This document shows positions 13,274 to 64,000 of a stretch of 64,000 nucleotides of DNA, piece after piece (the stretch's first letter is position 1; each line of letters begins with the position of its first letter). Both the position numbers and the translations under genes were made by a program. The notes under the pieces were generated by a model. That model saw nothing but the letters and a program-made list of their open reading frames with translations, had not been told where the DNA came from and did no database searches. Location: the NCBI GenBank assembly GCA_001899205.1, contig MKVL01000031.1, positions 62,001-126,000 on the forward strand, in the 5' to 3' direction. Origin of the DNA: Mesorhizobium sp. 65-26 (GTDB lineage: Bacteria; Pseudomonadota; Alphaproteobacteria; Rhizobiales; Rhizobiaceae).

Positions 13274-13558
13274 TCACCTAAGATATGTTCGCAGGACACT
13301 GACCAACTCGTCCGCGGCGTTTCGCTCGCTCTGGCTGGGCGCGCGGTTGGGGTCGACCATGTGGGTGCGGATGTGGCCGTTGATAACTTCCGCCATGATT
13401 CCGTTGATCGCTCCGCGGGTTGCAGTGACCAGGCGCATGACGTCGTTATAGGCTTCGTCGGCGATGAGAGCCCGCTCTAATGCGTCGACCTGGCCGCGCA
13501 AGCGGCGGACACGGTTAAGGAGTCGCTGCTTCTCGGCAACGACGTGCGATCTGCCCAT
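13274..13558 (-). CDS. CsoR/RcnR/FrmR-family repressor lacking the usual Cys ligand
   Basis: An all-helical DUF156 repressor of 94 residues: basic VRRLRGQVDALERAL at 17-31, then TRGAINGIMAEVINGHIRTHM at 47-67. In CsoR, RcnR and FrmR a Cys near residue 35 is the near-invariant metal or aldehyde ligand. Here that position is Tyr37 (DEAYNDVM). His62 and His66 match RcnR's His60 and His64, and His5 may match its N-terminal His. The gene starts right next to two dyads (13563-13576 and 13583-13602), which points to autoregulation. It heads the operon with kinase and regulator. The metal is unknown; the His pattern hints at a borderline or hard divalent ion. Confidence 0.9.
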   Translation of the reverse strand: MGRSHVVAEKQRLLNRVRRLRGQVDALERALIADEAYNDVMRLVTATRGAINGIMAEVINGHIRTHMVDPNRAPSQSERNAADELVSVLRTYLR

Positions 13559-13562
13559 TTCG

Positions 13563-13576
13563 TATACCCGGGTATA
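13563..13576. promoter_or_regulatory. Perfect palindrome TATACCCGGGTATA
   Basis: A 14-bp palindrome five bases upstream of the CsoR-like start codon, overlapping where its ribosome binding site or promoter would lie. CsoR-family operators typically contain G/C tracts flanked by ATA/TAT. Confidence 0.65.
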
Positions 13577-13582
13577 GTTGCA

Positions 13583-13602
13583 ATATACCCCCTCGGGTAT
13601 AT
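13583..13602. promoter_or_regulatory. Operator ATATACCC-CCTC-GGGTATAT
   Basis: An 8-4-8 inverted repeat with a C5 tract, the form expected of CsoR/RcnR-type operators. It is shared with the sites at 10660 and 11376 and lies between the divergent repressor and NRAMP operons. Confidence 0.7.
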
Positions 13603-13849
13603 ATCAAAACCGTGGCGCTGTGAAGACCGGCAACGATTTCACGCGCCAAGGTCCAGCCTATGGTGGGCTGGATTTTCCATTGGCACAGCAAGGGATCGAT
13701 ATGAACCCGCGACCTAGCAGTCTGGCCGACGAATGCGACAGTAGACGCTCGACGTCTGCTCTCGTTTCGCTGCGGCTCGGCTATGCTCAGGGCGACGACA
13801 CGATTGTCGAGGGCCGCGCGATCCACTTCGCGCTGCTTTGATGCGTGCC

Positions 13850-13876
13850 GCCTCCTGAGCCCAGGCATCAGGAGGC
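13850..13876 (+). promoter_or_regulatory. Hairpin sequestering a Shine-Dalgarno
   Basis: GCCTCCTGA (13850-13858) is the exact complement of TCAGGAGGC (13868-13876), with a 9-nt loop. The 3' arm contains the AGGAGG that serves the ATG at 13882, so folding would hide that ribosome binding site. Confidence 0.65.
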
Positions 13877-13881
13877 AAAAA

Positions 13882-14037
13882 ATGACCTTCCAGTTTTCCA
13901 GTGTGCGTCCGCAAGGCGTCACTTCCCCAGCGAGCTCGGTTCTCTCTTTCAAGCGCAGGCGCCCGCGGTTGACAGCCCGTTGGCGACTGACGGCGGCAGG
14001 GCGCCTCGAATGCCGGTGGTTTCTGTCACCGGACTGA
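13882..14037 (+). CDS. Short upstream ORF (51 aa) before the NRAMP gene
   Basis: It has the best ribosome binding site in the region (AGGAGG 13870-13875, six bases before the ATG). The peptide is basic, with a C-terminal pattern PRLTARW...GRLECRW. Arg/Trp-rich C-termini of this sort occur in small alphaproteobacterial proteins. It ends 92 bp before the NRAMP start. Its SD is masked by a perfect hairpin, so it could be a regulated leader peptide or a small protein. The function is inferred from position. Confidence 0.55.
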   Translation: MTFQFSSVRPQGVTSPASSVLSFKRRRPRLTARWRLTAAGRLECRWFLSPD

Positions 14038-14129: not shown

Positions 14130-15758
14130 ATGCTGTCTAACCTCGATACTCCCGTGCGTCACGCTGTGCTGGATGAAGCGCATATCGGCGACATCAAAGG
14201 CGCGCTCGGCACAATCAAGAAGAACGATACGGGTCCCAGGAACGGTTGGCGTGCTCGTTTGATGACGCTGCTGGCAATCCTTGGACCGGGCCTGATCGTC
14301 ATGGTCGGTGACAACGATGCCGGCGCCTTCGGCACCTACACGCAGGCGGGCCAGAACTATGGCACCTCGCTGTTGTGGACGCTCATCCTGCTCATTCCCG
14401 TCCTGTACGTGAACCAGGAAATGGTTTTGCGGCTCGGCTCGGTGACGGGCGTCGGCCACGCGCGGCTCATTCTCGAACGGTTTGGCAAGTTCTGGGGCGC
14501 CTTCAGCGTTGTCGACCTTTTCTTGCTGAATGCTCTGACCATCGTCACCGAGTTCATCGGAATCAGCCTGGCGCTCGAGTACCTCGGGCTTCCGCGAGGC
14601 GTAGGCGTCATTGCCGCAGCGGCCGTCATTATCGCCGCGGCTGGGACGGGCAATTTCCGGCGATTCGAAAGATTTTCGCTGTTTCTCGTTTTCGGCAGTC
14701 TTCTGTTGGTGCCGGTGCTCGTCTGGGTTCATCCCCCGGTCAGCCAGATCGCCCATGATCTCGTCGTGCCGCAGTTTCCTGAAGGCGGGAAGCTGAGCGA
14801 GGTGATGCTCCTGATCATTGCCATTGTCGGGACAACGGTCGCGCCCTGGCAGCTCTTCTTCCAGCAGAGCTATGTGATCGACAAGCGCATCACGACGCGC
14901 TTTCTGAGCTACGGGCGCATCGATCTCGTCCTTGGCATTGTGCTGGTCGTCATCGGCGCAGTGGCGATGATGGCGTTCACCGCAGCGACGTTCGCAGGTC
15001 GTCCGGAGTTCGGGAATTTCCAGGACGCCGGAGCCGTGGCTGCCGGGCTTGGCGCCTATGTCGGGAAGACGGCTGGCGTCTTCTTCGCCCTTGCGCTGCT
15101 CGATGCCAGCGTGATCGGCGCGATGGCGGTCTCGCTGTCGACGGCCTACGCGATAGGCGATGTGCTGTCGCTGCGGCATTCGCTGCATCGGAAGCCGCAG
15201 GACGCCAAGGGCTTCTATGCGGTCTATGGCGGCCTCGTTACGTTGGCTGCTGCGCTGGTTTTGACCCCCGGCATGCCGCTCGGCCTGCTAACCAACGCCG
15301 TGCAGACTCTGGCCGGCGTGTTGCTACCGAGCGCCACCGTGTTCCTGCTGCTGCTTTGCAACGACAAAGCCGTTCTGGGTCCGTGGATCAATGGGCGGTG
15401 GATGAACCTGTTCACCGGCGCCGTCGTCGGTGTCCTCGTGATGCTGTCAATCATCCTGACCGCATCGGTGCTGTATCCAAACATGAGCGAGAGCACGATC
15501 CTCGCGATACTCGGGATCGGAGGCGTATTCACGCTCGCCGTCGCTGTCGCCTTCCTCTTCATCCACCGCGAAGAGCCGGCCAACGCGAAGAACGAGATGG
15601 TGCGCGCGACGTACCGCATGCCGCCGCTGGATGAGCTTCCGTCAGCTCGGATGACGCCGATGACTCGTCTCTGGATGCTGGTCTTGCGCGGTTATCTGAT
15701 CTTGGCCGGCGGGCTTGTCCTCGTGCGGATCGTGCAGCTTTCGCTCGTCGGCCGGTGA
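14130..15758 (+). CDS. NRAMP-family divalent metal transporter, non-canonical metal site
   Basis: Inner-membrane transporter of 542 residues with about 11 helices. The start at 14130 has AAAGG upstream; the frame is open from 13845. Helix 1 reads LIVMVGDNDAGAF (GDNDAG at 60-65) where classical MntH has DPGN. Helix 6 reads GTTVAPWQLFFQQS (~233) where MntH has the Met-Pro-His motif. This places it in the divergent NRAMP branch that includes Mg-transporting members, so Mn2+ should not be assumed. The C-terminus (RATYRMPPL...VRIVQLSLVGR) is closely similar to the partial gene at 63701. It is divergent from the CsoR-like operon. Confidence 0.9.
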   Translation: MLSNLDTPVRHAVLDEAHIGDIKGALGTIKKNDTGPRNGWRARLMTLLAILGPGLIVMVGDNDAGAFGTYTQAGQNYGTSLLWTLILLIPVLYVNQEMVLRLGSVTGVGHARLILERFGKFWGAFSVVDLFLLNALTIVTEFIGISLALEYLGLPRGVGVIAAAAVIIAAAGTGNFRRFERFSLFLVFGSLLLVPVLVWVHPPVSQIAHDLVVPQFPEGGKLSEVMLLIIAIVGTTVAPWQLFFQQSYVIDKRITTRFLSYGRIDLVLGIVLVVIGAVAMMAFTAATFAGRPEFGNFQDAGAVAAGLGAYVGKTAGVFFALALLDASVIGAMAVSLSTAYAIGDVLSLRHSLHRKPQDAKGFYAVYGGLVTLAAALVLTPGMPLGLLTNAVQTLAGVLLPSATVFLLLLCNDKAVLGPWINGRWMNLFTGAVVGVLVMLSIILTASVLYPNMSESTILAILGIGGVFTLAVAVAFLFIHREEPANAKNEMVRATYRMPPLDELPSARMTPMTRLWMLVLRGYLILAGGLVLVRIVQLSLVGR

Positions 15759-48930: not shown

Positions 48931-48948
48931 TGCCGTAAGTGGCGGCGC

Positions 48949-50197: not shown

Positions 50198-51262
50198 TCA
50201 TCCCGTCTCGGCGGCGTCAACGTGCATGAAGCGCGCGACGTCCTGCGGGATAAGTTCGATCCGCAAGGCTGCTGCCAGCACGTCGACGCCGATGCCGCGC
50301 AGATCCTCGTTGAAGTCGCCCCGCCTCGGGGTCCAGGTGATCGCCTCGACCCCGGCCGAGCGGGCCCGCTCGGTCAACGCGATCGCGGCCCCGTCGCCGG
50401 CCGCATCGTTGTCGCGAGCGATATAGAGCCGGCGCAGCGTCGGCGGAAGCAACAAGGCTGCGAGGTGATTGGCCGAGAGCGCAGCGGCCATCGGCAAGGT
50501 CGGCAACACGCAGCGCAGCGACAGCATGGTCTCAATGCCTTCGCCGGCCGCGAGCACATCGGTGGCCACACCGAAACGGACGGCGTTGCCGAGAAGATCG
50601 CCCATCGCGCGCCGTGGCGTATCGATCGGCGCCTTGCCGAGACGGACGAGATCGAAGCCGGCGGGATTGAGCCAGGTGCGGTGCGCGCCGGTGATGCGCC
50701 CATCAAGGTCGGTCACACGTGCGATCATCGCTGGCCAAATTTCGGTCGGCGAGTAATCATCCGGGCGATAGTAGCAGCGCGGGTGGAATCGCAATGCGCC
50801 GGCTTCGTGCAAAGGCGTAATGCCGCGATTACGGAGATACGTCTCTGCGAGTGTGCGCATCATCGGCTGCGACATCGCAAAGAGCCGCCGTGCGGCCTCC
50901 GGCGAGCCAGTCTGCGCAGGTGGTCTGGCCGAGTTTGGCGAAGGCTCCTGTTCGCTGCGCGGCAGGTTCAAGAAGCGGCGCGCTTCGTCAGCAACATCGT
51001 GGAAGTCGACGAGGCCGCAGCTCTCGCGGATGATGTCGAGGAGATCGCCATGTTCGCCTGTTGCGGCATCGGTCCACTTGCCGGCTGGTCCTTTCGATGA
51101 CTCCTTCAACCGAACGAACATGGATCGACCGGGTGTGTTGCGGGCATCGCCAACCTGCCAATAACGACCTTCGCGGCGGCCATTGGAAAGATAGTGACGG
51201 CACACCGTCTCCGCGTCGCGCGCGAGCCGGCGTGCCAGGTCGGAAGCGTCGCGCGGCATCAC
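50198..51262 (-). CDS. Toprim-domain protein (DUF7146-like, primase-related)
   Basis: 354 residues. The N-terminal part has a primase-like zinc-finger-free region (WTDAATGEHGDLLDIIRESCG). The middle reads RNRGITPLHEAGALRFHPRCYY and ITGAHRTWLNP. The Toprim core follows: EGIETMLSL (catalytic Glu) and RDNDAAGDGAA (acidic DxD-like). Likely acts on ICE DNA in replication or priming. Its ATG overlaps the stop of the upstream helicase gene (51259-51262). Confidence 0.9.
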   Translation of the reverse strand: MMPRDASDLARRLARDAETVCRHYLSNGRREGRYWQVGDARNTPGRSMFVRLKESSKGPAGKWTDAATGEHGDLLDIIRESCGLVDFHDVADEARRFLNLPRSEQEPSPNSARPPAQTGSPEAARRLFAMSQPMMRTLAETYLRNRGITPLHEAGALRFHPRCYYRPDDYSPTEIWPAMIARVTDLDGRITGAHRTWLNPAGFDLVRLGKAPIDTPRRAMGDLLGNAVRFGVATDVLAAGEGIETMLSLRCVLPTLPMAAALSANHLAALLLPPTLRRLYIARDNDAAGDGAAIALTERARSAGVEAITWTPRRGDFNEDLRGIGVDVLAAALRIELIPQDVARFMHVDAAETG

Positions 51263-54200
51263 GCGGCCTCCCGTTCGCCGACGCGCTCGACCGGATAGCG
51301 ATCGAGCACGCGATTGAGTGTTTCGACGCCGCTCGCATCGGTCGGCACGAACATGCGCAGCTTCCAGGAAATGATCTCGTGGAAGAGGCCATAGGCTTTC
51401 AGCCGGTCGCGCATCGTGTCGTCGAATCCCGACAGCTCGATGCGGTTGGCGCCCATGACGCGAACACGGCGAAGCTGCAGGCCCTCGGCGAGGTCGAGGA
51501 TGGTTCGCCCCTCCATCAGTGCGCCGAACGCCATGTCAGGCGTCAGGGTCGGCGTGTCGGCCGCCAGCGCGTTCGCCGCCCAGGCGGCCGAAACCTTGCG
51601 GCCAATGATGCGCTCACCCGTATCGGTCTGGAGTCGGTAAACCCGGGTCGACTCGTTCGGCAGCCGCTTCCAGATCGGGAGGAGCAAGCCTGCCACCACA
51701 TGGATGGTGCTGTCGGTGAAATCGGAAACTTCGCCGAGTTCGACGTGCCAAGCCTCCGCGAAGCGCTCACGGTTGGCCTCCATCCAATGGCTTTCCGCCA
51801 TTGTCTTCAGCGGAAGGCTGTGATGCTCCATCGGCCGGATCAGCCGTACCCGCCGTTCAATCTCGCCGTCGTCGAGCATGAGGCTCGGCGCCGGGACCTG
51901 AACGGCGGCGCGTCCCGATCGCTCGTTGATCAAGAGCACCGCGCGCGGATCGGAGAGACGATCGAAGGCTTCCGCCAGCGTCACCGGAAGGTTGCGTCTG
52001 CGCTCGGTGATGGTGAGCAATCGCGTCTCGGCGCCGGTCGCGGGATGGCTGTAAATGACGCTTCGATCCGTGATGACGAAGCTCTCGGCGCGCAGCGTCT
52101 CGAGGCCCGCGTCATAGCTGCCGGATGCGATCGCCCCTTCGATGCGGGCGGTGAGCAACTGTTCGAACGCGGTGAAGAGGACGTTCTGCAGGTCGATGGT
52201 CAGCGCCAGCAGACGATTGAGGAAGGTGGTAATCGGCGGCAGTTCGTCCTTGATGCCGTTCGCATCCATCAGCTTCAGACCCGTGGAATCCTCGAAGGTC
52301 TGAAGCGAGCAGCCTTCGACCTTGCCACGCGCCAGCAGCATGTAGAGCTGACGGAGCGCATCGCGGCCGTAATGACTTTCGAGATTGTCTTCAGGCCGGA
52401 ACAGGTTCTGGCCGCCGGTCTGACGCTGTCCGCGCGTGATCGCTCCGAGCGTATCGAGACGGCGGGCGATCGTGCTCAGGAAACGCTTTTCGGCCTTCAC
52501 ATTGGTCGCGATCGGGCGGAAGAGCGGTGGCTGCGCCTGGTTGGTGCGGTTCGTGCGACCCAGGCCTTGGATGGCGGCGTCCGCCTTCCATCCGGGTTCG
52601 AGGAGGTAGTGAACCCTCAGCCGGTGGTTCCGCGCCGACAGTTCGGCGTGGTAGGAGCGCCCCGTGCCGCCGGCCTCGGAGAACACCAGAATGCGCTTGG
52701 CGTCGTCCATGAAAGCCGCGGTTTCTGCAAGGTTCGCCGAAGCCGCGCGGTTCTCGACCATCAGCCGATCGCCCTTGCGGATGACGCGGCGCGAGCGTCC
52801 TGTCACTTCGGCGACCATGTCCGTGCCAAAGCGCTGCACGATCTGATCGAGCGCGCCGGGCACAGGCGGCAACGAGGCGAGCTTCTCGATCAGCCGGTCG
52901 CGGCGGGTAACCGCTTCGCGGCTTTCGACCGGCTGGCCGTCGCGAAAGACCGGCCGCGACGAGAGATTGCCTTCCGAGTCGGTGAAGGGCTCGTAGAGCT
53001 GCACCGGAAAGGAGTGGGCAAGATAGTCCAACACATACTCACGCGGTGTGATGTCGACCTGGACGTCGCCCCAATCCTCAGTCGGGATCTCCGCGAGCCG
53101 GCGCTCCATCAGCGCTTCGCCGGTCGAGACGATCTGGACCACGGATGCGTGGCCGGCCTCGAGATCGCGCTCTATCGAGCGGACCAGCGAGGGCGTTTTC
53201 ATCGAGGTGAGCAGGTGGCCGAAGAAGCGCTGCTTGGCCGACTCGAACGCCGAGCGCGCGGCGGATTTCGCCTGCGCGTTCAGCGTGCCGCTGTCACCGG
53301 TGATGTTGGCGGCCTGCATCGCGGCATCGAGGTTGTTGTGGATGATCGAGAAAGCGCCGGCATAGGCATCGTAGATGCGGATTTGCTCCGGCGTGAGCTC
53401 GTGTTCGATCAACTCGTATTCGACGCCCTCATAGGAGAGCGAACGGGCGGCATAGAGGCCGAGTGCGCGAAGGTCGCGCGCCAGGACCTCCATCGCCGCG
53501 ACACCACCGTCTTCGATCGCCTCGACAAACTCGGCGCGTGTCGCGAACGGAAAGTCCTCACCGCCCCAGAGGCCAAGGCGCTGGGCATATGCAAGATTGT
53601 GAACGGTGGTGGCGCCTGTCGCGGAGACGTAGACAACCCGCGCATTCGGCAGCGCGTGCTGCAGCCGTAGGCCGGCGCGCCCCTGCTGCGAGGGTGCCTG
53701 GTCGCCGCGTTCGCCCTTGCCGCCCGCGGCATTCTGCATGGCATGAGACTCGTCGAAAATGATCACTCCGTCGAAATCGGCCCCCAACCATTCGACGATC
53801 TGCCGGACACGCGAAAGCTTCTCGCCGCGCTCATCGGTGCGTAGCGTCGCGTAGGTCGTAAATAGGATGCCTTCTGCGAGGCGGATCGGCGTGCCCTGGC
53901 GGAATCGAGAGAGCGGCGTGACGAGCAGACGTTCCATGCCGAGCGCCGACCAGTCGCGCTGCGCATCCTCGATCAGCTTGTCGGACTTGCTGATCCACAG
54001 CGCACGCCGACGACCCTTCAGCCAATTGTCGAGCAGGATGCCGGCGACTTGGCGGCCCTTGCCGGCGCCGGTGCCATCGCCGAGGAACCAGCCGCGACGG
54101 AAGCGTACGGACGTCTCGGCGTCGTCGCGTGCGGCGGTGACGAGATCGAAGGTTTCGTCCACGGTCCATGCGCCGGCGAGGAAATCGCCGTGCGCTTCGC

Positions 54201-55593
54201 CGGCGTAAATGACGCTCTCGAGCTGCGCGTCGGATAGCAGGCCGCCCGTGACGAGGTTCACTGGAAGATGCGGCCTATAGGAGGGCTTCGGCGGTGCAAC
54301 CGACGCCATCGCGGCCGATTGCACGAGTTTGGTCGGATGCGCCTGCGAGCCGGGAATACGGATCGACTGCAATCCGTATTCTTCATAAAGCGCATCGGTG
54401 AGGCGGGCGCCCTCGGGCGGCGCCCATTCGAGGATCTCGTAGGAAAGCTCAACGCCTGCAGGGTCCGCAAGCGCGGCGGCCGGTTGCCGCGAGGCGGCGC
54501 GGGCGAGATAGCCGCGAACGCTGCGAGGCGTGGCGACGCCGACGGCGGTCGGCGCGGCGAGTGATCTGGCGACCGGGCGGCGCGGGGGAACATGCTTGGT
54601 GATCCAGCCGAGCAGCGTGGCGATGTCCGGCGCGATGCCGGCGGACGCTGGAAACTGAGCCGGATCGGACGCGGGCATCTTGTCGATGACCATCAGCCGC
54701 GTGTCGATTGTCGTGCCATGCTTCGCGTAGACTGCGCCGTCGACCGCCGCGGTGAAGACGACAGTGCCGCGCTCCTGCAGACGGACGAAGGCGTCGCGCC
54801 ACGCCGGCGTTTCCGGGCCGAAGTTCGCGCCGGTGATCGCGACAAGCCGCCCGCCGTCGGCGAGACGTGCCAACGCCGAGGCCACATGGCGGTAGGCGGC
54901 ATCTGCCATCCGGCCACTGACATTCGCCATCGCCGAGAATGGCGGGTTCATAAGGACGACGGTCGGATCGATCGTGGAGCCAAGATGATCGTCGATCTGC
55001 GCAGCATCGAACCGCGTCACGGGGACGGCCGGAAAGAGGGAGGAGAGCAACGCGGCGCGGGCCTCGGCCAACTCGTTGAGTGCGAGCGCGCCGCCGGCGA
55101 TTTCCGCCAGAATGGCGAGAAGGCCGGTGCCTGCTGATGGTTCAAGCACGTGGTCGCCAGGTGTGATGGCGGCGGCACAGAGCGCGGCGAGGCCGAGCGG
55201 GATCGGCGTCGAGAATTGCTGGAGCGCCTGGCTCTCCTCTGACCGCCGCGTATGGGTGGGAAGAAGGCTCACGAGCTTCACGAACTGCGGCAGCGCTGCC
55301 GACGCAGAACCGGCTTTACGGAAAATCGGCTTGCCGTATTTGCGCAGAAACAGGACGGATGCTGCCTCGCAGGCGTCGTAGGCCGTCTTCCAGTCCCAGG
55401 CGCCGGACGTGTCGGAGCGGCCGAGGGCTTGCTCCATCGCCGCACGCAAAATGGCGGCGTCGACGCGCCGGCCTTGCTCAAGGTGGGGAAGAAGAAGCTG
55501 CGCGGCCTCGGCGAGGCGTGGCGCAGGAGCTACCGTGGGAGTGCACGGGATTGGCGCGGCCGTCGGATCGGCCGCTGCGGAAGGATGCGACAT
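51259..55593 (-). CDS. Methyltransferase-like / strawberry-notch helicase fusion, 1444 aa
   Basis: Residues ~100-320 hold an N6-adenine methyltransferase-like domain (LEPSAGTGLLA, MNPPF at ~214). From ~450 follows a strawberry-notch superfamily 2 helicase: Walker A GDGTGAGKGRQ (~504), DESH box (~614), VVYVSATGATTVHN, and C-terminal QGLGRTNRTNQ (~1013), then a long Sno-type C-terminal domain. Commonly present in large ICEs and some phages; the role is unclear (methylation-linked remodelling or anti-restriction are proposals). It is the largest gene in the window. Confidence 0.93.
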   Translation of the reverse strand: MSHPSAAADPTAAPIPCTPTVAPAPRLAEAAQLLLPHLEQGRRVDAAILRAAMEQALGRSDTSGAWDWKTAYDACEAASVLFLRKYGKPIFRKAGSASAALPQFVKLVSLLPTHTRRSEESQALQQFSTPIPLGLAALCAAAITPGDHVLEPSAGTGLLAILAEIAGGALALNELAEARAALLSSLFPAVPVTRFDAAQIDDHLGSTIDPTVVLMNPPFSAMANVSGRMADAAYRHVASALARLADGGRLVAITGANFGPETPAWRDAFVRLQERGTVVFTAAVDGAVYAKHGTTIDTRLMVIDKMPASDPAQFPASAGIAPDIATLLGWITKHVPPRRPVARSLAAPTAVGVATPRSVRGYLARAASRQPAAALADPAGVELSYEILEWAPPEGARLTDALYEEYGLQSIRIPGSQAHPTKLVQSAAMASVAPPKPSYRPHLPVNLVTGGLLSDAQLESVIYAGEAHGDFLAGAWTVDETFDLVTAARDDAETSVRFRRGWFLGDGTGAGKGRQVAGILLDNWLKGRRRALWISKSDKLIEDAQRDWSALGMERLLVTPLSRFRQGTPIRLAEGILFTTYATLRTDERGEKLSRVRQIVEWLGADFDGVIIFDESHAMQNAAGGKGERGDQAPSQQGRAGLRLQHALPNARVVYVSATGATTVHNLAYAQRLGLWGGEDFPFATRAEFVEAIEDGGVAAMEVLARDLRALGLYAARSLSYEGVEYELIEHELTPEQIRIYDAYAGAFSIIHNNLDAAMQAANITGDSGTLNAQAKSAARSAFESAKQRFFGHLLTSMKTPSLVRSIERDLEAGHASVVQIVSTGEALMERRLAEIPTEDWGDVQVDITPREYVLDYLAHSFPVQLYEPFTDSEGNLSSRPVFRDGQPVESREAVTRRDRLIEKLASLPPVPGALDQIVQRFGTDMVAEVTGRSRRVIRKGDRLMVENRAASANLAETAAFMDDAKRILVFSEAGGTGRSYHAELSARNHRLRVHYLLEPGWKADAAIQGLGRTNRTNQAQPPLFRPIATNVKAEKRFLSTIARRLDTLGAITRGQRQTGGQNLFRPEDNLESHYGRDALRQLYMLLARGKVEGCSLQTFEDSTGLKLMDANGIKDELPPITTFLNRLLALTIDLQNVLFTAFEQLLTARIEGAIASGSYDAGLETLRAESFVITDRSVIYSHPATGAETRLLTITERRRNLPVTLAEAFDRLSDPRAVLLINERSGRAAVQVPAPSLMLDDGEIERRVRLIRPMEHHSLPLKTMAESHWMEANRERFAEAWHVELGEVSDFTDSTIHVVAGLLLPIWKRLPNESTRVYRLQTDTGERIIGRKVSAAWAANALAADTPTLTPDMAFGALMEGRTILDLAEGLQLRRVRVMGANRIELSGFDDTMRDRLKAYGLFHEIISWKLRMFVPTDASGVETLNRVLDRYPVERVGEREAA

Positions 55594-55659
55594 GGGAAGG
55601 GACCTCGGGAGAGCTGGACACGGGCGAGCCGGCCGGCGCTCTCTCTGGTCCGCACCGGC

Positions 55660-56001
55660 TCAAACCCGTCCCGGCCACACTCTCCCTCTCGTCATCCCGC
55701 CAGCCTTGACGCCGCGCCACCACGCGATCCGCGCTTCGCGTGTCGCGTTCGCGAGCCGCAGCAAGAAATCGCCGTGGCATGGTCGCGGCGCGCAGAAGCA
55801 GACGAGATCGCAGCCGCGAAGCTCGTCGAGCGCGCGCAGGAGATGATGCTGGTCTGCGAGCCAGCGCTCGTACTTCGCGATGACGGCGGCGCGGTCGCCG
55901 TCGGGGCCAATTCGGAAAGGATTGCCCCATTTCGAGCCGCGCCCGACATAGACGGCGCTCGCCGGCACGCCTGCGTGATGCTTGTTGAGAACCCTGTACA
56001 T
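55660..56001 (-). CDS. DUF4326-domain protein
   Basis: 113 residues: MYRVLNKHHAGVPASAVYVGRGSKWGNPF is the usual DUF4326 start, then LRGCDLVCFCAPRPCHGDFLLRLAN with clustered Cys/His. Function unknown; frequent in phages and ICEs. Confidence 0.9.
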   Translation of the reverse strand: MYRVLNKHHAGVPASAVYVGRGSKWGNPFRIGPDGDRAAVIAKYERWLADQHHLLRALDELRGCDLVCFCAPRPCHGDFLLRLANATREARIAWWRGVKAGGMTRGRVWPGRV

Positions 56002-56148
56002 TGTAGACCGCCTCCTGATCTCCGTTGCGACGGGGCTGGCGACCGGGATGCGGTCAAGGCCTGGCGGTCACGCATCGCGCGCGATGCGGAAACGGCTTGC
56101 CCGTTGACCGACGGGCCGCCGCGTCCAGACAGGTCACGACGCGGGGTG

Positions 56149-56391
56149 TCAGGAGGCTGATTCGTCCGATAGGTTCTCAGACGGCGGCACATAGGCGTCG
56201 TAGGGATTGCCATCGGCTAGGTGGCCAAAGGGCGTGAACAGGAAATCCGCGCCATCGCGTCCGACGGCGCAGATGACGTAACGGGTCTCGCCGGTCGCTG
56301 CATCGGCACATTCCATGAGGGCGAGGTTGCCGTCTGCCGCAGCGTGGAGCAGCGTCTGAAAGTTGGCGCGCGCGTGATCGGGAATGCTCAT
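56149..56391 (-). CDS. DUF6117-like small protein
   Basis: 80 residues from ATG 56391, overlapping the upstream stop by ATGA: IPDHARANFQTLLHAAADGNLALMECADAATGETRYVICAVGRDG..FLFTPFGHLA. The pattern matches the DUF6117 group of ICE proteins. Function unknown; the long frame around it (to 56586) is a shadow. Confidence 0.82.
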   Translation of the reverse strand: MSIPDHARANFQTLLHAAADGNLALMECADAATGETRYVICAVGRDGADFLFTPFGHLADGNPYDAYVPPSENLSDESAS

Positions 56392-56813
56392 CGCGCACCG
56401 CGCTTTCCGCGGCCCGGCGACAAAGTCCGCGCGAGCCAGCCGCGCGTGTCGGTCCATGCGATCGTCTCGCGGGTGGCGAGATCGAGACAATGGGCCCCGC
56501 CGCTGAAGGCGTCGATGCGGGGCCGGGAGCATGTGTTGGCCCATTGAAAACCCCAGCGACCCTTGAGATCGAAGATCTCCGCACAACGAAGGACGAAGGT
56601 GATGACTGTTTGCGGATCGCCCGTGACATCATCACGGATCCACAGCACGGCGCCGCCGTGTTCGGGCTGGATGGAGAGCAGAAAAGCATCCGAGGGCGGG
56701 TCTTCCCGGGCGTTCTCTTCCATCAGCGCATTATAGAGTTCGAGCGCGCGCGCCGCGTTGTCGGGCGTGCCGACATCGAGCACGCATGAGAAGTGCGTGA
56801 AGAAATCAGCCAT
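56388..56813 (-). CDS. Conserved ICE hypothetical protein, 141 aa
   Basis: An acidic N-terminal half (MADFFTHFSCVLDVGTPDNAARALELYNAL) is followed by LLSIQPEHGGAVLWIRDDVTGDPQTVITFVLRCAEIFDLKGRWGFQWANTCS and a basic end. Found next to DUF6117 genes in this element type; no known function. Coupled to the downstream gene. Confidence 0.8.
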   Translation of the reverse strand: MADFFTHFSCVLDVGTPDNAARALELYNALMEENAREDPPSDAFLLSIQPEHGGAVLWIRDDVTGDPQTVITFVLRCAEIFDLKGRWGFQWANTCSRPRIDAFSGGAHCLDLATRETIAWTDTRGWLARTLSPGRGKRGAR

Positions 56814-56880
56814 GATGGCCTCCTGAAACGAAATCGCCCAGCGCGATGGCCGGGCGGAGGGAATTCGATGGAGAGAAGTA

Positions 56881-56906
56881 AGCGGGGCGACTCATGCCGC
56901 CCCGCT
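56881..56906 (-). terminator. Hairpin after parB
   Basis: AGCGGGGCG and CGCCCCGCT form a perfect 9-bp stem 9 bases beyond the parB stop. No T tract on either side. Confidence 0.6.
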
Positions 56907-56914
56907 CCTGGGCG

Positions 56915-59050
56915 TTACTCGGCGGCGATCACGACTGGCGCGTCGGTCTCGTCTTCGCTGGCTGTGTCTTCACCGTCGGCGAGAAAGGCGGGCAGTGCTT
57001 CCTCTTCGCCGCCGTTGGCGTCGGCATCGCCGATGTCGGCAGTCGTCGCTTCGGAAGACCGGAGCGGCTCGGGCAGCCAGCCGGTGCCGTTGAGCAGCCG
57101 TTCGGCCTCCTTCGCCATGTCCGCCTTCTTCAGATGGTCGATGAGCTGCGCCGACTGCTCGCCGTTCGCCTCGCGCACCGCTTCGAGGATACGAGGCTTG
57201 GTGACGCGGCCGAGATAATTCTCGACCGTTGGCCGCCAACCGGCGTCGACCATGTCGAGCCCGACGGCCCGTGCGAGGCGGTCAGCCTGGGCGAGACGAT
57301 GTTGGACGCCGTGAACGGAGAGACCGGGACCGCCATAGCGATCGCCTTTCTCGTAGAGCGCGTTGACGCCGAAAGAGACGCAGTGCGCCAGCAGTGCGGC
57401 CCGGCTGGCGTCGTCCAGTGCGGCGAGCCAATCCCAGAGCGCGGCTTCATCCTTCGGCATGTCGGCCTTCCAGGCATCGTGCCGTTCGGTGACCGCCTTG
57501 GCGGACGGGCTTTCCTTGAGGTCGGCAGACTGGATCGAGAAGAACACGTGCCGCACCGACGCTTCGAGACAGTTGCCTGTCGCTGTGTGCTGGAAGGCGT
57601 CGAGGCAGAGTTTGTGCAGGAGCGCCGTCATCGCGACATGCGGATTGTTCGCCACGGCATCCCGCAGCGCCAGCGTGCGGTACGCGGTCAGTTCGCTAAG
57701 CAGCCGATCCGGCAACGGCTTAACGACGTCGTCCTCATCGTCTTCCGGCTCGGCCTGGCCGCCGATGGTGATGACGACACGCTGAACCGGCGACGTGTCG
57801 TTGTCGATCCTAACCTGCTCGAGATCGTCGCGGTCTTCCTGACCGGGCTCGACGACTGGAGCTTCATCCTCGGGGCGAACATAGCCACGATCGACCTGGA
57901 GCTGGCCGTCGTGAGCGATGCTGACAAACACCCCGGCCCGGGAGATGTCGGCCGGATCGAAGACGTGCGGTCGCGACTCGAACGCCTCAAGCGCGGTTTC
58001 GATCTCGCTGAGGCGCTGGTCGACCTCGTCGGGCAGTTCGTCGGCATCTTCGTATTGCGCCTGAAGCTGATCGAACTCGGTGCGCAGCGCTTCACGCGTG
58101 GCACGTTCGTCGTCGGTGAGATCGGCCGGTATGCCGTCGAGCTCGCGCAGGCCGTGGTCGTGACCGTAGGGGAAGTCCACTGCGACCTCGATCCATTTCC
58201 AGCCCTCGGTGGCGATATGTTCCGCGTCGGTCTTCAGTTTTTCGGCGACAAGGGTTTCGAGAAGCCCGATATTTTCAAGCCAGCCACCGTCGTCCTGCTG
58301 GAAGAGATCGCGCATGACGACACCGCCCGCGTTCTCGTAGGCGCCGATGCCGACGAACAGCACGCGGCGATCCGACGCGCGGACGGTTTTCTCCGTCAGC
58401 ATGCGCCGGATCTGATAAGGCTCCTGGCTGTAGGACCGCTGGAGCGCGTCCCAGACCTGGAGCTGGCGCGCATGGTCCGTTGTCACGGTGAACGCCATGA
58501 GCTGCTCGAGCGACATGCCATCCTCGGCATAGATGTCGAGAAGCTTCTCCGACACCGCGGCGATGCGCAGGCGCTGCTTGACGACATTGACGCCGACGAA
58601 ATAGGCGGCCGCGATGTCTTCGTCGCATAGGCCCTTGTCGCGCAGGGTCTGGAAGGCGCGGAATTGATCGAGCGGGTGTAGCGGCACGCGCTGGACGTTC
58701 TCAGCCAGCGAGTCGTCCTCGGCGAGGATCTTGGTGGAGGGATCGCGGACTACGCAGGGCACGGGCGCGGTCTTGGTAAGGCGCTTCTGCTTGACGAGGA
58801 GCTGCAACGCCTGGAAGCGCCGGCCACCGGCAGGCACTTCGAACATACCTGTCTCGACGCCCTCCTCATCAAGAACCGGGCGGACATTGAGGCTCTGGAG
58901 CAGGCAGCCGCGACGGGCGATATCCGCCGCGAGATCCTCGATCGAGACGCCGGCCTTCACGCGCCGGACATTCGACTGGGAGAGGATGAGCTTGTTGAGG
59001 GGGATGTCGCGCGAGGACGACAGGGTGATCTTCTGAACGGCACTGGCCAT
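56915..59050 (-). CDS. ParB/Spo0J-family protein, 711 aa
   Basis: N-terminal ParB domain: IPLNKLILSQSNVRRVKAGVSIEDLAADIARRGLLQSL-like start, FEVPAGGRRFQALQLL, SLAENVQRVPLHPLDQFRAFQTL, then the HTH GLCDEDIAAAYFVGVNVVKQRLRIA. A long C-terminal part (residues ~250-711) is acidic and unlike classical ParB. Large ParB proteins of this kind are ICE-borne; partition or transcriptional roles are possible. No ParA partner adjoins it (parA is at 38 kb). Confidence 0.92.
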   Translation of the reverse strand: MASAVQKITLSSSRDIPLNKLILSQSNVRRVKAGVSIEDLAADIARRGCLLQSLNVRPVLDEEGVETGMFEVPAGGRRFQALQLLVKQKRLTKTAPVPCVVRDPSTKILAEDDSLAENVQRVPLHPLDQFRAFQTLRDKGLCDEDIAAAYFVGVNVVKQRLRIAAVSEKLLDIYAEDGMSLEQLMAFTVTTDHARQLQVWDALQRSYSQEPYQIRRMLTEKTVRASDRRVLFVGIGAYENAGGVVMRDLFQQDDGGWLENIGLLETLVAEKLKTDAEHIATEGWKWIEVAVDFPYGHDHGLRELDGIPADLTDDERATREALRTEFDQLQAQYEDADELPDEVDQRLSEIETALEAFESRPHVFDPADISRAGVFVSIAHDGQLQVDRGYVRPEDEAPVVEPGQEDRDDLEQVRIDNDTSPVQRVVITIGGQAEPEDDEDDVVKPLPDRLLSELTAYRTLALRDAVANNPHVAMTALLHKLCLDAFQHTATGNCLEASVRHVFFSIQSADLKESPSAKAVTERHDAWKADMPKDEAALWDWLAALDDASRAALLAHCVSFGVNALYEKGDRYGGPGLSVHGVQHRLAQADRLARAVGLDMVDAGWRPTVENYLGRVTKPRILEAVREANGEQSAQLIDHLKKADMAKEAERLLNGTGWLPEPLRSSEATTADIGDADANGGEEEALPAFLADGEDTASEDETDAPVVIAAE

Positions 59051-59194
59051 CGGGACTTACTCCGCGACGGGCGCCGAAAGACTCTCTCTCGGCTTTCAAC
59101 CCGCCGCGAAGACCGGCGCAGCCCTCTTCCTCTTATGGGTTTTCGCCCCGGACATCGCCGCAGCCTTCCCGGCCAGACCCAAGTCTCACCGCCG

Positions 59195-59218
59195 ATGACT
59201 GTCGTCGGGAACAGTCAT
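59195..59218. terminator. Weak hairpin at the end of the EamA gene
   Basis: ATGACTGT and ACAGTCAT pair around an 8-nt loop and overlap the stop codon at 59215-59217. Only a T4 tract follows on the plus strand, so termination is uncertain. Confidence 0.35.
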
Positions 59219-60285
59219 TTTGCCTGGACGTGCGTATGCCGATGATGCAGGTCGGGGTAATGGGCGTGACCGTGGCGCAAGGGTGCGTGCCGATGCCAAT
59301 GCGAATGCGGTTCTGTTACCAGACCATCATGCTCATGTTGGTGGTGCTCGTCGTGCACGTGCACATGCTCGTGCGCTAGGGCATCGTGTAGATGCTCATG
59401 CTCATGCCGCTCCGCGAGGTGAAGCCAGAGCCCCACCATCATCAGCATTCCGGCGGCGATCAATTGGATCGTCAAAGGCTCGCCTAGCAGAACCACGGCG
59501 ATGATCGCCCCAATGAAAGGCGCCAGCGAGAAGTAGGCGCCGGTGCGTGCGGCTCCGAGGTTGCGAAGCGCAAGCATGAAAAGAACGAGGCTTACACCGA
59601 CGCCGAGGAAGCCGACGGCGGCCGCGGCCGCGATCGTGGTCGGCGTCGGCAGATGCGCGCCAAGCACCATCGCCAAGGCGACGTTCGTACTGCCGGCCGC
59701 GATACCCTTGATGGCCGCCGTGATCACCGGATCGGCCAAAGACAGTTTGCGCGTCAGATTATTGTCGATGCCCCACGCTAGGCACGCGACGGCGATAAAG
59801 GCACCGCCCGCGTCGATGCGTACACCTGTTCCATTCCACGCGAGGATCGCCGCTCCCGCAAGGATGGCGAAGGCGCCCAGCATTAGCCGCCGATCCACGT
59901 TTTCCCGGAACACGACCCACGCGATCGCCATGGTCGCGAGCCCTTCCAAGTTCAGTAGTAGGGACCCGGAGGCGGCGGACGTACGCGCCAACCCCAACAT
60001 CAAGAGGAGCGGTCCGGCTACCCCGCCGCATAGGACGACGGCCGCGAGCCAGGGGAGGTCATGGCGCCGTAGGGGCGCCTCCGGAGCCGGAGCGCCGAAG
60101 GCTGCTCTGCTAGCGATGATGGCCACCAGACCGATGCCGGCCCCGAGATAGAGCAGTCCGGCGAGGAGCTGCGGCGGCATCGAGCCGAGCAAGAGCTTCG
60201 CGAATGGCGCCGAGGCACCGAAGAGCACTGCCGATATGAGCGCCAGTGGCACGCCTGGCCAGAGGGGAGAGCGCGACTGTGTCAT
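59215..60285 (-). CDS. EamA/DMT-family transporter with His-rich tail
   Basis: 356 residues with ten predicted helices in two EamA repeats (GVPLALISAVLFGASAPFAKLLL; MVLGAHLPTPTTIAAAAAVGFLGVGVSLVLFMLALRNLGAARTGAYFSLAPFIGAIIAVVLLGEPL). The last ~70 residues are extremely His-rich (HEHEHLHDALAHEHVHVHDE and more), a likely metal-binding sensor or shuttle. The location beside Kup, MgtE-N and NRAMP suggests a cation exporter; the substrate is unproven. Confidence 0.9.
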   Translation of the reverse strand: MTQSRSPLWPGVPLALISAVLFGASAPFAKLLLGSMPPQLLAGLLYLGAGIGLVAIIASRAAFGAPAPEAPLRRHDLPWLAAVVLCGGVAGPLLLMLGLARTSAASGSLLLNLEGLATMAIAWVVFRENVDRRLMLGAFAILAGAAILAWNGTGVRIDAGGAFIAVACLAWGIDNNLTRKLSLADPVITAAIKGIAAGSTNVALAMVLGAHLPTPTTIAAAAAVGFLGVGVSLVLFMLALRNLGAARTGAYFSLAPFIGAIIAVVLLGEPLTIQLIAAGMLMMVGLWLHLAERHEHEHLHDALAHEHVHVHDEHHQHEHDGLVTEPHSHWHRHAPLRHGHAHYPDLHHRHTHVQAK

Positions 60286-60377
60286 GCCGCAAGCTTAGCA
60301 GAATAGAGGTGTGTCCACCTCCTTCTTCGCTGCATCGACGGCGGGACTGTCTTGTCTGAGCACTTGACGGGGATGAC

Positions 60378-62270
60378 TTACAACTCGATCTGCCGCGCGA
60401 TTTCCACGACGCGGTCGGGCGGCAAGCTGAAGCGATCAACCACCTTTACGGCATTGCGATAAAGAAAGGCGAACACTGGAAGACGCCAATGCGCAAACAG
60501 CGAGCTTCCGGCCCTTGCAACGATAATATCGCGTGTCGCGAAATAAATGGCGTGATCGAGATCGATCGACGGATCGAGACCCTTAACCCGCTTCAGAGCG
60601 GCGGTGAGGTCTGGTATTTCGACGAAGCCAAAGCGCATCGTCACGCGCCAGATCCCGTCGGCAATCTTTTCTACGCCACAGCGCTCCTCATCATCGATGC
60701 GCGGCGATTCCTCGAACAGAATCGTCAAGGCGATTACCGACTGATGGAGGGCGCCCATGTGTTTGACGTGGTCGATCAGCAGCGGCGGGATTTTCTGATA
60801 GGTCCGGGTCAGGAAGATCGCCGTGCCGGGGACACGGGGCACCTTGCCGGCGGCCAAGTCAGCGACAAATCTTTCGGGTGCTTCCGACGCTTGCGCCAGG
60901 CTCTCGCGAACCGCATCGATCCCCGACCGCCAGGTCAGCATCAGGAAGAAGACGAGCGCGCCGAAGGTCAGGGGCAGCCAGCCGCCTTCGGCGATCTTCA
61001 GCAGATTGGCGCCAAAGAACCCGACATCGACGATCAGGAAGAGTCCGGCGATTAGGATCGAAACCGCGAGCGGCCAACGCCATGTTTTCCGCATAGCCGT
61101 GAAGAGCAGGCAGGTGGTCAGCAGCATCGTTGTCGACACCGCCGTGCCGTAGGCGCCGGCAAGCCTGTCGGAACTGCCGAAGGCGATGGTGATCCCGATG
61201 GTCGCTACCATCATCATCCAGTTTACGACGGGCACGTAGATCTGGCCGTAAACTTTGTCGGACGTCTGGCGAATATGAAAGCCGGGCAGCCAGCCGAGTT
61301 GCATCGCCTGCCGTGTCATCGAGAACGAACCCGTGATGATCGACTGGCTGGCGATGATGGTGGCAATCATCGCCAGGAACACAAGCGGATAGACTCCCCA
61401 TGTGGGGCAAAGCTGAAAGAACGGATTGCCTTCGATCGTACCCTTCTGGATGAGCAAGGCGGTCTGTCCGGCGTAGCTGAGCAGCAGCGACGGCAGCACG
61501 ATCGCGTACCAGGACAGGCGTATGGGGCCGGGCCCGAAGTGTCCCATGTCGGCGTAAAGCGCCTCGCCCCCGGTGATGCAGAGGAAGACGCCGCCGAGCA
61601 CCAGCATCCCGTTTCCTCCGCTATGGGCCAGGAAGCCGATTGCGTGACGCGGATCGAGGGCGGTGAGGACGCTGGGATTGCGAACGATCCCGGTGAGCCC
61701 AAGGACCGCGATAACAAGAAACCAGAGCAGCATGATCGGGCCGAAGGCGGCGCCAATTCTAGCCGTGCCGAACCGCTGGGCTGCGAAGAAGACAATCAGG
61801 ATGGCGACGGCCGCCGGCATGACGAAGGGCTTGAGCGAACCCGTCACGACATTGACACCTTCGAGCGCGCTGAGCACCGAGATGGCCGGCGTGATGACGC
61901 CGTCGCCATAGAGCAAGGCCGCGCCGAGCAGGCCCATGACGGCCAGGATTTTGGCGGTCCCTTTGAATCTGTTGGCGCCGACCAGCGACATCAGGGCAAG
62001 GATTCCGCCTTCCCCATGGTTGTCGGCGCGCATGACGAACAGACAATATTTGATCGAAATGGTGATGATCAGGGTCCAGACGAGCAGCGACAGGATGCCT
62101 AGCGCGCTGGCGGTCGTGAAATGTCCGCCGGTTGCTTGGACGACGGTCTGGAGAGTGTAGAGCGGGCTGGTGCCGAGATCGCCATAGACGATGCCTAGCG
62201 CGCCGAGCGCCGCCCAATGCTGGGGTTCGCGGGTGCGTGTGGATACGTCCTGGGCGACAGTGGGGGTCAT
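60378..62270 (-). CDS. kup: Kup potassium uptake transporter
   Basis: 630 residues from ATG 62270 (an ATG at 62303 would add 11; neither has a clear ribosome binding site). Motif LGIVYGDLGTSPLYTLQ in helix 1, then NHGEGGILALMSLV, ALYADMGHFGP and 12 helices, with a cytosolic C-terminal domain ending PDRVVEIARQIEL. H+/K+ symport in the inner membrane. Downstream of the MgtE-N gene by ~85 bp, so possibly part of the same transcript. Confidence 0.95.
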   Translation of the reverse strand: MTPTVAQDVSTRTREPQHWAALGALGIVYGDLGTSPLYTLQTVVQATGGHFTTASALGILSLLVWTLIITISIKYCLFVMRADNHGEGGILALMSLVGANRFKGTAKILAVMGLLGAALLYGDGVITPAISVLSALEGVNVVTGSLKPFVMPAAVAILIVFFAAQRFGTARIGAAFGPIMLLWFLVIAVLGLTGIVRNPSVLTALDPRHAIGFLAHSGGNGMLVLGGVFLCITGGEALYADMGHFGPGPIRLSWYAIVLPSLLLSYAGQTALLIQKGTIEGNPFFQLCPTWGVYPLVFLAMIATIIASQSIITGSFSMTRQAMQLGWLPGFHIRQTSDKVYGQIYVPVVNWMMMVATIGITIAFGSSDRLAGAYGTAVSTTMLLTTCLLFTAMRKTWRWPLAVSILIAGLFLIVDVGFFGANLLKIAEGGWLPLTFGALVFFLMLTWRSGIDAVRESLAQASEAPERFVADLAAGKVPRVPGTAIFLTRTYQKIPPLLIDHVKHMGALHQSVIALTILFEESPRIDDEERCGVEKIADGIWRVTMRFGFVEIPDLTAALKRVKGLDPSIDLDHAIYFATRDIIVARAGSSLFAHWRLPVFAFLYRNAVKVVDRFSLPPDRVVEIARQIEL

Positions 62271-62357
62271 GAGCCATTCATGTAGGGCGGTGGCCCGCAG
62301 CATGGAGGAAGACGAGGATGGTCGTCTCGTTGGGCTGGAATCCGTGGGTGTCGGACA

Positions 62358-63635
62358 TCATCCCAGTCGGCGTTGCGGCGAGCCACTTGCCCCCTCGCGC
62401 CGGGCCCAGTCCTGCGGGATGGCGGCTTCCAGCGCGTCGTCTACGGTCACCAACCCCAGCAATTTCCCCTCGGCATCAACAACCGGCAAGCTCAACAAGT
62501 TGAAGTCAGCCATCCGCGTGGTGACCGCAATGATGTCGTCATCAGGCGATGCGACGATTGCGCGCGCGTCGACTGCGTCGCGAAGTAACGTCGAGGGACT
62601 AAGTTGCAGGGCGCGCACAACGCTTAGCGTTCCGGCCAAGGCGCCGTCCGCATTCAGGCTGTGAATCGTCACCAAGGCCTCGGGCTGCACGGTTGTCAGT
62701 GTTCGCAGTTGCTCAAGCGCATCGCCGATCGTGCGATCCTCCGGCACGGCGAGGAAATCGGCGCCCATCAGGCCGCCCGCCGTCGCCGAATTAAAGCCGA
62801 GCAGCATGCTGACCTTCATCTTCGTCGCCGTCGGGAGACGATCGAGCACGTTCTGTCGGCGTTCCTGCGGCAACTCCATGATCGCGTCGGCCGCGTCGTC
62901 GGCGCGCATGCGCGACAGTACGTCGGCCACCTCGTCGTCGTTGCGCGATTTCAGCAGTTGCGCCTGCTTGTCATCGTCCAACTCCTCGAAGACATTGGCT
63001 TCCAGGCTGGGATCCGTATGCACCAAAGCCAGCAAGACATCCTGCTCTTGGCTCGGAGCGCGTTCAATAATATCGGCGATCTGAGCCGGCTTCAGCGCCT
63101 CGATGCGGCCGAGCGATGATGTAGATCTGGCCTGCGCTGCGTCGCGGGTGAGCGGCAGGAAGTCGTGCCAGTCCCGGGCCGGGTGGTGCTCATGCGAGCC
63201 GAAGTGCAGCCAGCTATGCTTGTGCACGTCCACGCTGACCATGCGCCAACCCGACGGGGTTGCGTCGAAGCGCACGTCGTGCGCCTTGACCAACACGCCG
63301 CGCGGCAGATCGACCAGACGCCGGCCGAGCATCTCGGCCTTCAGCAGCGTTTCCCCAGCCTCTTGTGAGAAGGGTCGTCGTTCTCCCGCCGCGATCCGCA
63401 CAGCGCCATCGGGCTTGATCTCGATGACGTCCGCCATCGGCACGAATACCGGGCCGCTGCCGACCAGGAGGCCTTTCAGCAGTGGATAGTCATTGTCCCG
63501 CAAGACGGCGACAACGTCTTCCAGGCGGCCGGCCGGGGCGCCGTTGGCGTCCACGACGCCATGCTTGAACATGGAGACCAGGGAGACCGTCTCGTGGACG
63601 GGCGCATGAGGGGCATCGGTGGCGTTAGGAGTCAT
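62358..63635 (-). CDS. Soluble MgtE-N/CBS protein with PRC-barrel-like N-terminus
   Basis: 425 residues from ATG 63635 (AGAGG upstream). The first ~150 residues contain two PRC-barrel-like segments (LVSMFKHGVVDANGAPAGRLEDVV; LVDLPRGVLVKAHDVRFD). Then the MgtE superhelical N domain (LKPAQIADIIERAPSQEQDVLLALV ... FEELDDDKQAQLLKSRNDDEVADVLSRMRADDAADAIMELPQERRQNVLDRL) and two CBS motifs (GGLMGADFLAVPEDRTIGDALEQL; LLSLPVVDAEGKLLGLVTVDDALEA). There is no membrane domain. In MgtE these cytosolic domains bind Mg2+ and gate the pore. It lies 65 bp after the NRAMP-like gene at the right edge. Confidence 0.9.
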   Translation of the reverse strand: MTPNATDAPHAPVHETVSLVSMFKHGVVDANGAPAGRLEDVVAVLRDNDYPLLKGLLVGSGPVFVPMADVIEIKPDGAVRIAAGERRPFSQEAGETLLKAEMLGRRLVDLPRGVLVKAHDVRFDATPSGWRMVSVDVHKHSWLHFGSHEHHPARDWHDFLPLTRDAAQARSTSSLGRIEALKPAQIADIIERAPSQEQDVLLALVHTDPSLEANVFEELDDDKQAQLLKSRNDDEVADVLSRMRADDAADAIMELPQERRQNVLDRLPTATKMKVSMLLGFNSATAGGLMGADFLAVPEDRTIGDALEQLRTLTTVQPEALVTIHSLNADGALAGTLSVVRALQLSPSTLLRDAVDARAIVASPDDDIIAVTTRMADFNLLSLPVVDAEGKLLGLVTVDDALEAAIPQDWARREGASGSPQRRLG

Positions 63636-63700
63636 GGCAAACCTCTTCAACAGGATGAGCCCGGTGGAATGCCTTGGCGAGAAGGCTGGTGACGGCAGGG

Positions 63701-64000
63701 TCAGTGGCCAAGGGCAACCTCCACGACACGAACGATCACCAGGATCATCGCGATCAACAGATAGGTGCGGAGGACAGTCAGACCGATCCGCACCTCGGCG
63801 GAGAGCTGCGGCGCCTTAAGGAGCGCCAGCGGGGCCATCCGCCAGGTAGCGCGGAGGCTGGTGTCGACGGCGACCTTGGGCGCCGCGGGATGCAGGCGCC
63901 GGTAGGTGAAGAAAGCTGCGGCGCTGACCGCGGAAACCGCTGCGCCGATCTCCAGGATCAGGATGATGGTTTGGGCGCTGATGTCGGGGAACAGCACGCT
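63701..64000 (-). CDS. NRAMP-family transporter, C-terminal part (runs off right edge)
   Basis: The frame is open to the edge (…SVLFPDIS). It aligns end to end with the C-terminus of the NRAMP-like protein at 14130: SVLFPDIS/SVLYPNMS, LRATWRMAPL/VRATYRMPPL and VRVVEVAL/VRIVQLSL, with the same last two helices. The N-terminal ~440 residues are outside. It is the first visible gene of the MgtE-N/Kup group. Confidence 0.85.
   Translation of the reverse strand, partial: SVLFPDISAQTIILILEIGAAVSAVSAAAFFTYRRLHPAAPKVAVDTSLRATWRMAPLALLKAPQLSAEVRIGLTVLRTYLLIAMILVIVRVVEVALGH

Follow-up and report, generated by a model that had tools for sequence, protein, structure and literature searches.

In MgtE channels, Mg2+ bound between the N domain and the CBS domains closes the cytosolic part of the protein, and a plug helix helps to shut the pore. 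The NRAMP-related transporter EleNRMT has been shown to carry Mg2+ (PMC8806188). According to the passages of that paper used here, its metal site departs from that of classical NRAMPs in three exchanges (Met to Ala, Ala to Thr and Asn to Gly) and in having lost the helix-6b histidines, and the NRMT signature comprises Ala and Thr in helix 6, Trp for the first 6b His, Asp in helix 1 and Gln in helix 10. Shin et al. 2014 (PMC4072509) found that a gene for an MgtE fragment adjoins most NrmT genes and proposed feedback regulation by the fragment, although the role of this gene was left open. Two Clostridium NrmTs were functional without the fragment. The Acidobacterium NrmT, judged to be a Mn2+ transporter, also rescued alone, and co-expression of the fragment (their one such test) gave no further improvement.

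The locus described here is another case of this published pairing, which is not new. It lies in a window of 64,000 nucleotides (the whole stretch of DNA that was analysed, from whose first letter positions are counted) that is part of a 129,908-base contig of Mesorhizobium sp. 65-26. An earlier note on this DNA had described an NRAMP gene followed 65 bp later by a protein with MgtE N and CBS domains and no membrane domain. Both genes and the 65-bp gap are confirmed, and the downstream product, called the sensor below, has 425 aa. The features are as follows.

63701..64000, minus strand: C-terminal 99 codons of the gene for the predicted NRMT (Mg2+-type NRAMP); full protein 548 aa
Contig C31:126001-127347: remainder of the NRMT gene, beyond the window
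62358..63635, minus strand: putative soluble sensor, PRC-PRC-MgtE_N-CBS-CBS, 425 aa; a TTG at 63650 could also serve as its start
63141..63593, minus strand: tandem PRC-barrel region of the sensor, about residues 15-165
62790..63095, minus strand: MgtE N domain of the sensor, residues 181-282, with D246 and D250
62418..62780, minus strand: CBS pair of the sensor, residues 286-406, with D400
62394..62423, minus strand: C-terminal segment AIPQDWARRE of the sensor, residues 405-414, at the place of the MgtE plug helix
60378..62303, minus strand: Kup-type K+ transporter, next gene downstream of the sensor
14130..15758, plus strand: second predicted NRMT, 65% identical to the paired one, without a sensor; longest ORF from 13845
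13546..13901, plus strand: leader in front of the unpaired NRMT gene; shares 85% identity with the stretch upstream of the paired NRMT and contains a small ORF (13701-13841)

At least positions 45841-64000 of the window match the Bradyrhizobium sp. BTAi1 chromosome at 99.99-100% identity, aside from a BTAi1 insertion of about 6.5 kb at 58679-58683 (L198:124-6658) that is absent from the Mesorhizobium genome. Window bases 58679-58683 are found on both flanks of this insertion, which looks like a 5-bp target duplication, and the insertion site lies inside a gene (56915-59050) that appears ParB-like by eye. Membership in the unit is not supported for Kup, which the earlier note had named as the gene after the pair. 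There is no sign that Kup is a conserved partner: it adjoins the pair at this locus and in the near-identical BTAi1 copy, but none of six actinobacterial plasmid regions has an annotated Kup, the gene tables of those regions being incomplete.

The NRAMP protein matches the Pfam Nramp family (2.8e-80) and passes the broad NCBIfam equivalog Nramp_1 (NF037982; 58.8 versus 50 bits), a superfamily-level name that leaves the metal undecided. Its score with the NCBIfam model for the Mn2+-uptake protein MntH (109.5 bits) is far under the 430-bit cut-off. The closest solved structure is EleNRMT (7qia; 6.2e-57), the next is 10ky (5.6e-23), and the best entry named MntH reaches 1.7e-13. All of the signature residues listed above are present (A242 and T239 in helix 6, W244, D67 and Q396). 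In the alignment D67, T239, A242, W244 and Q396 correspond to EleNRMT D55, T224, A227, W229 and Q379, and they are invariant across 83 aligned NRMTs, 74 of which adjoin a sensor and 9 of which have no adjacent sensor. The Gly-for-Asn exchange in helix 1 is not found, as Ala 70 occupies the place of EleNRMT Gly 58. Position 70 is Ala in 22/22 NRMTs whose gene precedes that of the sensor (this one counted) and in 9/9 unpaired NRMTs, Gly in 51/52 NRMTs from sensor-first loci, and Asn in none of the 83. Because Ala 70 concerns only one exchange of the signature, the protein is filed as an NRMT with this reservation. In our reading it is a Mg2+-type NRAMP with Ala replacing one Gly, and its sequence predicts Mg2+ transport.

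NRMTs of this long type are rare among close relatives, with 5 in 347 genomes from the order having one (this genome counted) and none of the eight same-genus genomes listed. Nine have no adjacent sensor, including the second one on this contig. Five positions passed the filter for differences between paired and unpaired NRMTs, and only 351 (Gly/Ser) and 522 (Gly/Trp) also separate the unpaired from the sensor-first proteins; since there are just nine unpaired NRMTs, from one clade, these two positions are a hint only.

The earlier note had also proposed a PRC-barrel-like start for the sensor. The N-terminal ~165 residues were modelled separately, since VIA-align hardly touched the PRC part of the full model, and Foldseek identifies this predicted model as a tandem PRC-barrel. 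Each of its four matches below 1e-3 is a chain from the CdpB1/CdpB2 complex, and among the next, weak matches (0.08 to 0.4) are single PRC domains and RimM. Pfam PRC is above its cut-off at the N-terminus of five of six relatives scanned singly, though not in this sensor. The best matches of the whole sensor model are MgtE cytosolic domains, but the arrangement of its domains is unlike that of MgtE, with no superposition (rmsd 11-13 A). The sensor has neither a Pfam match to the MgtE membrane domain (PF01769) nor a hydrophobic segment, the latter by a crude scan that finds a hydrophobic 19-mer in 41 of 89 soluble sensors.

The Mg2+ site residues of Thermus thermophilus MgtE (TtMgtE), as given in the portion of PMC5882242 consulted, were mapped onto the sensor through an alignment. 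Two Mg4 residues (D246 = TtMgtE D91 and D400 = TtMgtE D247) and a Mg6 residue (D250 = TtMgtE D95) are kept. The acidic residues on which the earlier note had made its proposal depend are thus present at Mg4 and Mg6, while Mg5 (N379/E403) and Mg7 (N214) are altered in this sensor. Among 89 sensors, a set that includes this one and the BTAi1 copy, Asp is found at the equivalents of TtMgtE D91, D95 and D247 in 88, 89 and 89 proteins, and in 42, 28 and 43 of 43 control MgtEs. The equivalent of TtMgtE E59 is Asp in 86 sensors and Asn in three, and the Mg7 position is Asp in 86/89. At Mg5, the TtMgtE D226 equivalent is Asn in 87/89, and that of TtMgtE D250 is Glu in 79 and Asp in 8. The plug helix is missing from the sensor. 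A PxDW motif follows the second CBS domain in 74/89 sensors, and its longer form PxDWR occurs in 61/89 (this one excepted) and in 0/43 MgtEs. Control by ATP was considered and set aside as uninformative: the residues that contact ATP in TtMgtE are mostly lost in sensors, yet most MgtE controls lack them too, and this loss says little because Phe227 is Leu in 39/43 of those controls as well. A fourth MgtE_N-like match of this genome (L008:2535-3107, minus strand) lies in a flagellar gene cluster, and by eye its product looks like MotE and not like a Mg2+ sensor.

A scan of GTDB genomes for the sensor gave at least 217 relatives, the best 80 of which, BTAi1 included, were kept as loci. Four of these are proteobacterial (Bradyrhizobium and three metagenome bins) and the others are actinobacterial. 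An NRMT gene adjoins the sensor gene on the same strand in 75 of the 80; of the five remaining loci, four run into a contig end on the partner side and one (L123) is a true orphan. The pair is therefore kept in 75 of 76 judgeable loci (best 80 of at least 217), with one orphan in 76; confinement to this element, which the earlier note would have taken as a refutation, does not apply. Restriction to this genus or phylum is likewise rejected. These counts rest on related sequences that are not independent. NRMT comes first in 22 paired loci and the sensor in 53, and in 36/53 of the latter the NRMT can be given an in-frame start 4 bp inside the sensor stop, an outcome favored by choosing the start nearest to that place. 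The survey for natural NRMT-sensor gene fusions that the earlier note had called for found none among the 80 loci; long frames that apparently span both genes were rejected, as the two genes are in different reading frames. In Pseudarthrobacter sp. Fe7 the NRMT frame is interrupted (L085:2226-3871).

Annotated plasmid copies of the pair occur in Arthrobacter, Pseudarthrobacter, Rhodococcus, Mycolicibacterium, Leifsonia and Cellulomonas, and more distant ones in Alicyclobacillus and Citrobacter. The proteobacterial pairs nest inside the actinobacterial NRMT-first group in both gene trees, so a transfer of the pair from actinobacteria is likely on these sequences. The two trees broadly agree except for the Leifsonia sensor (L073), which is placed differently; they were built with FastTree from a selection of 44 NRMTs and 39 sensors among those available, and several of the local supports are low. 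In 190 same-class and 398 same-phylum genomes, all sensor matches apart from the protein itself start at or after query residue 145, and thus at the thresholds applied none covers much of the PRC part.

We propose, with a probability of roughly 0.6, that the pair is a two-gene Mg2+ uptake unit in which the sensor acts in trans to throttle the NRMT at high Mg2+. The NRMT would import Mg2+, and the soluble protein would regulate it as a Mg2+-responsive subunit. Mg2+ may bind between the N domain and the CBS pair of the sensor, as in MgtE, and make them change shape, with the tandem PRC domain as the likely docking part or tether on the NRMT. At high internal Mg2+ the closed sensor would keep the NRMT in a nontransporting state, and at low Mg2+ it would let the NRMT go. 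Trans control is favored because the sensor retains part of the sensing interface but neither plug nor pore, and has a different C-terminal segment after the second CBS domain. This proposal draws on the adjacency of the genes, the domain make-up, the Mg4 and Mg6 residues, the NRMT signature and the riboswitches that precede some related pairs, whereas physical contact, PRC docking, the direction of control and Mg2+ as the ligand are inferred. It is also favored by the close spacing of many sensor-first pairs, the broad agreement of the two gene trees, and the MgtE relatives lacking pore residues and the PRC-only genes found next to NRMTs. Counted against it are the NrmTs that work without a fragment, the nine sensor-less NRMTs, the altered Mg5 and Mg7 sites, the lost plug helix, the domain arrangement unlike that of MgtE, the lack of an M-box at this locus and the single orphan. 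The subunit role named in the earlier note gains from the kept sites and the wide pairing, but it had already been proposed by Shin et al. 2014, whose co-expressed fragment added no rescue (PMC4072509).

The sensor could instead answer to Mn2+ or be a metal chaperone, with NRMTs of this clade mainly carrying Mn2+, but we regard this as unlikely. It would agree with the behavior of A. capsulatum NrmT, which has an adjacent MgtE fragment and fully rescued a Mn2+ defect, with rescue of a Mg2+ defect only at low millimolar Mg2+ (PMC4072509), and with Ala 70 in place of EleNRMT Gly 58. However, every other residue of the Mg2+-type site is kept, and Mg2+ riboswitches lie ahead of some related pairs: of 12 loci searched, a set that includes this locus and the BTAi1 copy, five have an M-box (RF00380) before the pair (Alicyclobacillus, Leifsonia, a Microbacteriaceae strain, Arthrobacter and Sinomonas). 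MgtC/SapB-family genes, also annotated near the pair on two plasmids (L072:11514-12224 and L073:9265-10047, both plus strand), are in keeping with a Mg2+ role, and a further one, assigned by eye, adjoins an unpaired NRMT (L048:9827-10543, plus strand). The substrate leans to Mg2+, by the site residues, the likeness to EleNRMT and the five M-boxes.

No M-box is present upstream at this locus, and an Rfam search of both NRMT leaders of the contig gave nothing near a gathering score. These leaders, of about 355 bp, are 85% identical, and the coding DNA of the two genes is about 70% identical. They lie at window 13546-13901 (plus strand) and at L081:1752-2104 (= L005 7532-7884, minus strand), and a third copy was not found in the genome at E 0.01. 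Pieces of the leader fold better than shuffles (z -2.0 to -4.0). A small ORF that starts in the leader begins MNPRPS. When at most one mismatch is allowed, its first 18 bases are found in 2 of 297 genomes from the order, namely this one (twice) and G660; they are also exact in G004 and G043, and an NRMT gene lies downstream at every occurrence. The two copies of the ORF differ by 3 synonymous and 8 nonsynonymous codons, so only its start looks constrained. The shared leader may play the part that the M-box has in some actinobacterial relatives.

It is also improbable that the sensor does not touch the NRMT and is a Mg2+ or nucleotide sensor for something else, merely co-expressed. The nine NRMTs without an adjacent sensor would fit this idea, as would a second sensor group that adjoins DUF1003 proteins instead. 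The 75/76 linkage in the best 80 of at least 217, often with little or no gap, argues against it, as does the apparent movement of the pair between phyla together, and both PRC-only genes and MgtE relatives without pore residues adjoin NRMTs as well.

The second, more distant group of soluble PRC-MgtE_N-CBS sensors adjoins DUF1003 membrane proteins at 41/41 loci (22/22 in one set, the query's own locus counted, and 19/19 in another), and it has Asp at the D91, D95 and D247 equivalents in 41, 41 and 40 of 41. This group and the pore-residue-less one come from a single query (the L077 sensor) against 25 genomes or records reached through the loci and 149 sampled genomes, and only the best matches of each became loci. 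Among the open-access papers searched, two contain DUF1003 or COG4420, and neither has MgtE or magnesium in its main text. The DUF1003-type sensor frames are interrupted in L181 (Mycobacterium lepraemurium) and L183 (Pseudarthrobacter sp. Fe7), and the product of a gene near this sensor in L195 and L196 presumably resembles Mrp/ApbC ATPases.

DUF1003 neighbors aside, 18 further matches with frames of at least 600 aa encode proteins that are 597-666 aa long and have between four and six hydrophobic segments; the three scanned with Pfam are all PRC-MgtE_N-CBS proteins. Twelve, from other actinobacteria, adjoin an NRMT. The membrane region of these 12 resembles the MgtE membrane domain (hhalign 97.4%, E 1.2e-11), versus less than 1% for control stretches of NRMT. 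The equivalent of the pore Asp D432 is present in 0/12, as compared with 32/32 MgtEs chosen by their GGNxGxQ motif. The motif itself is found in 0/12 versus 32/43 MgtEs, and its absence alone is weak evidence because just 32/43 have it. The six long relatives without an adjacent NRMT also lack the D432 equivalent and GGNxGxQ, although in them the membrane region is more like that of MgtE (99.5%, E 3.2e-23). Each of these six genomes has one NRMT elsewhere, and all six of those NRMTs are followed by a tandem-PRC frame of 191-244 aa. Such a frame is present at 3 of the 12 NRMT-linked loci as well. Of the nine frames, six were scanned with Pfam; each exceeds the PRC cut-off, and no MgtE_N match is seen in any. 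The gene order of these PRC-only neighbors gives the best hint of docking by the PRC part on the NRMT.

More tentatively, PRC-MgtE_N-CBS might be a portable Mg2+-gating module, taken off the MgtE pore, that serves two or more unrelated membrane proteins, NRMT and DUF1003, by PRC docking, with the pore-residue-less MgtE relatives as an intermediate step; this is possible, though on balance doubtful. If the module does gate DUF1003, that family would gain a functional lead, and the regulatory half of a channel would be seen to have become a general subunit.

We consider it very unlikely that the sensor is a positive subunit (an assembly factor, or an activator at low Mg2+) and not an inhibitor at high Mg2+, since NrmT proteins complemented without the fragment (PMC4072509), even though the PxDW segment in place of the lost plug helix would suit such a role and means that the closing mechanism of MgtE cannot apply unchanged.

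Four known systems come closest to this pair. The sensor shares with the MgtE channel of Thermus thermophilus its N domain, CBS pair and the Mg4 and Mg6 residues, and it differs in having no membrane domain or plug helix, in its altered Mg5 and in the tandem PRC in front. The CdpB1/CdpB2 complex of Archaeoglobus fulgidus (8qzo) has a similar tandem PRC-barrel fold (Foldseek 5.6e-05), a match that covers only the PRC part of the sensor and is a likeness of fold, not of shared function. EleNRMT (PDB 7qia) is the best solved relative of the NRMT, which keeps its D55, T224, A227, W229 and Q379; it has 438 aa, compared with 548 aa and longer N- and C-termini here, and the passages used from its paper mention no partner protein (PMC8806188). 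The NrmT/MgtE-fragment pairs are alike in placing an NRMT gene beside a gene for the cytosolic part of MgtE, and the regulatory idea is the same, whereas the main text describing them does not contain the words PRC, barrel, plug or DUF1003 (PMC4072509), and the locus described here differs in lacking an M-box. As far as our searches reach, the DUF1003 pairing, the pore-residue-less MgtE relatives beside NRMT and the PRC-only NRMT neighbors are new, and the last two, together with the kept Mg2+ residues, make the role of the MgtE-like gene directly testable.
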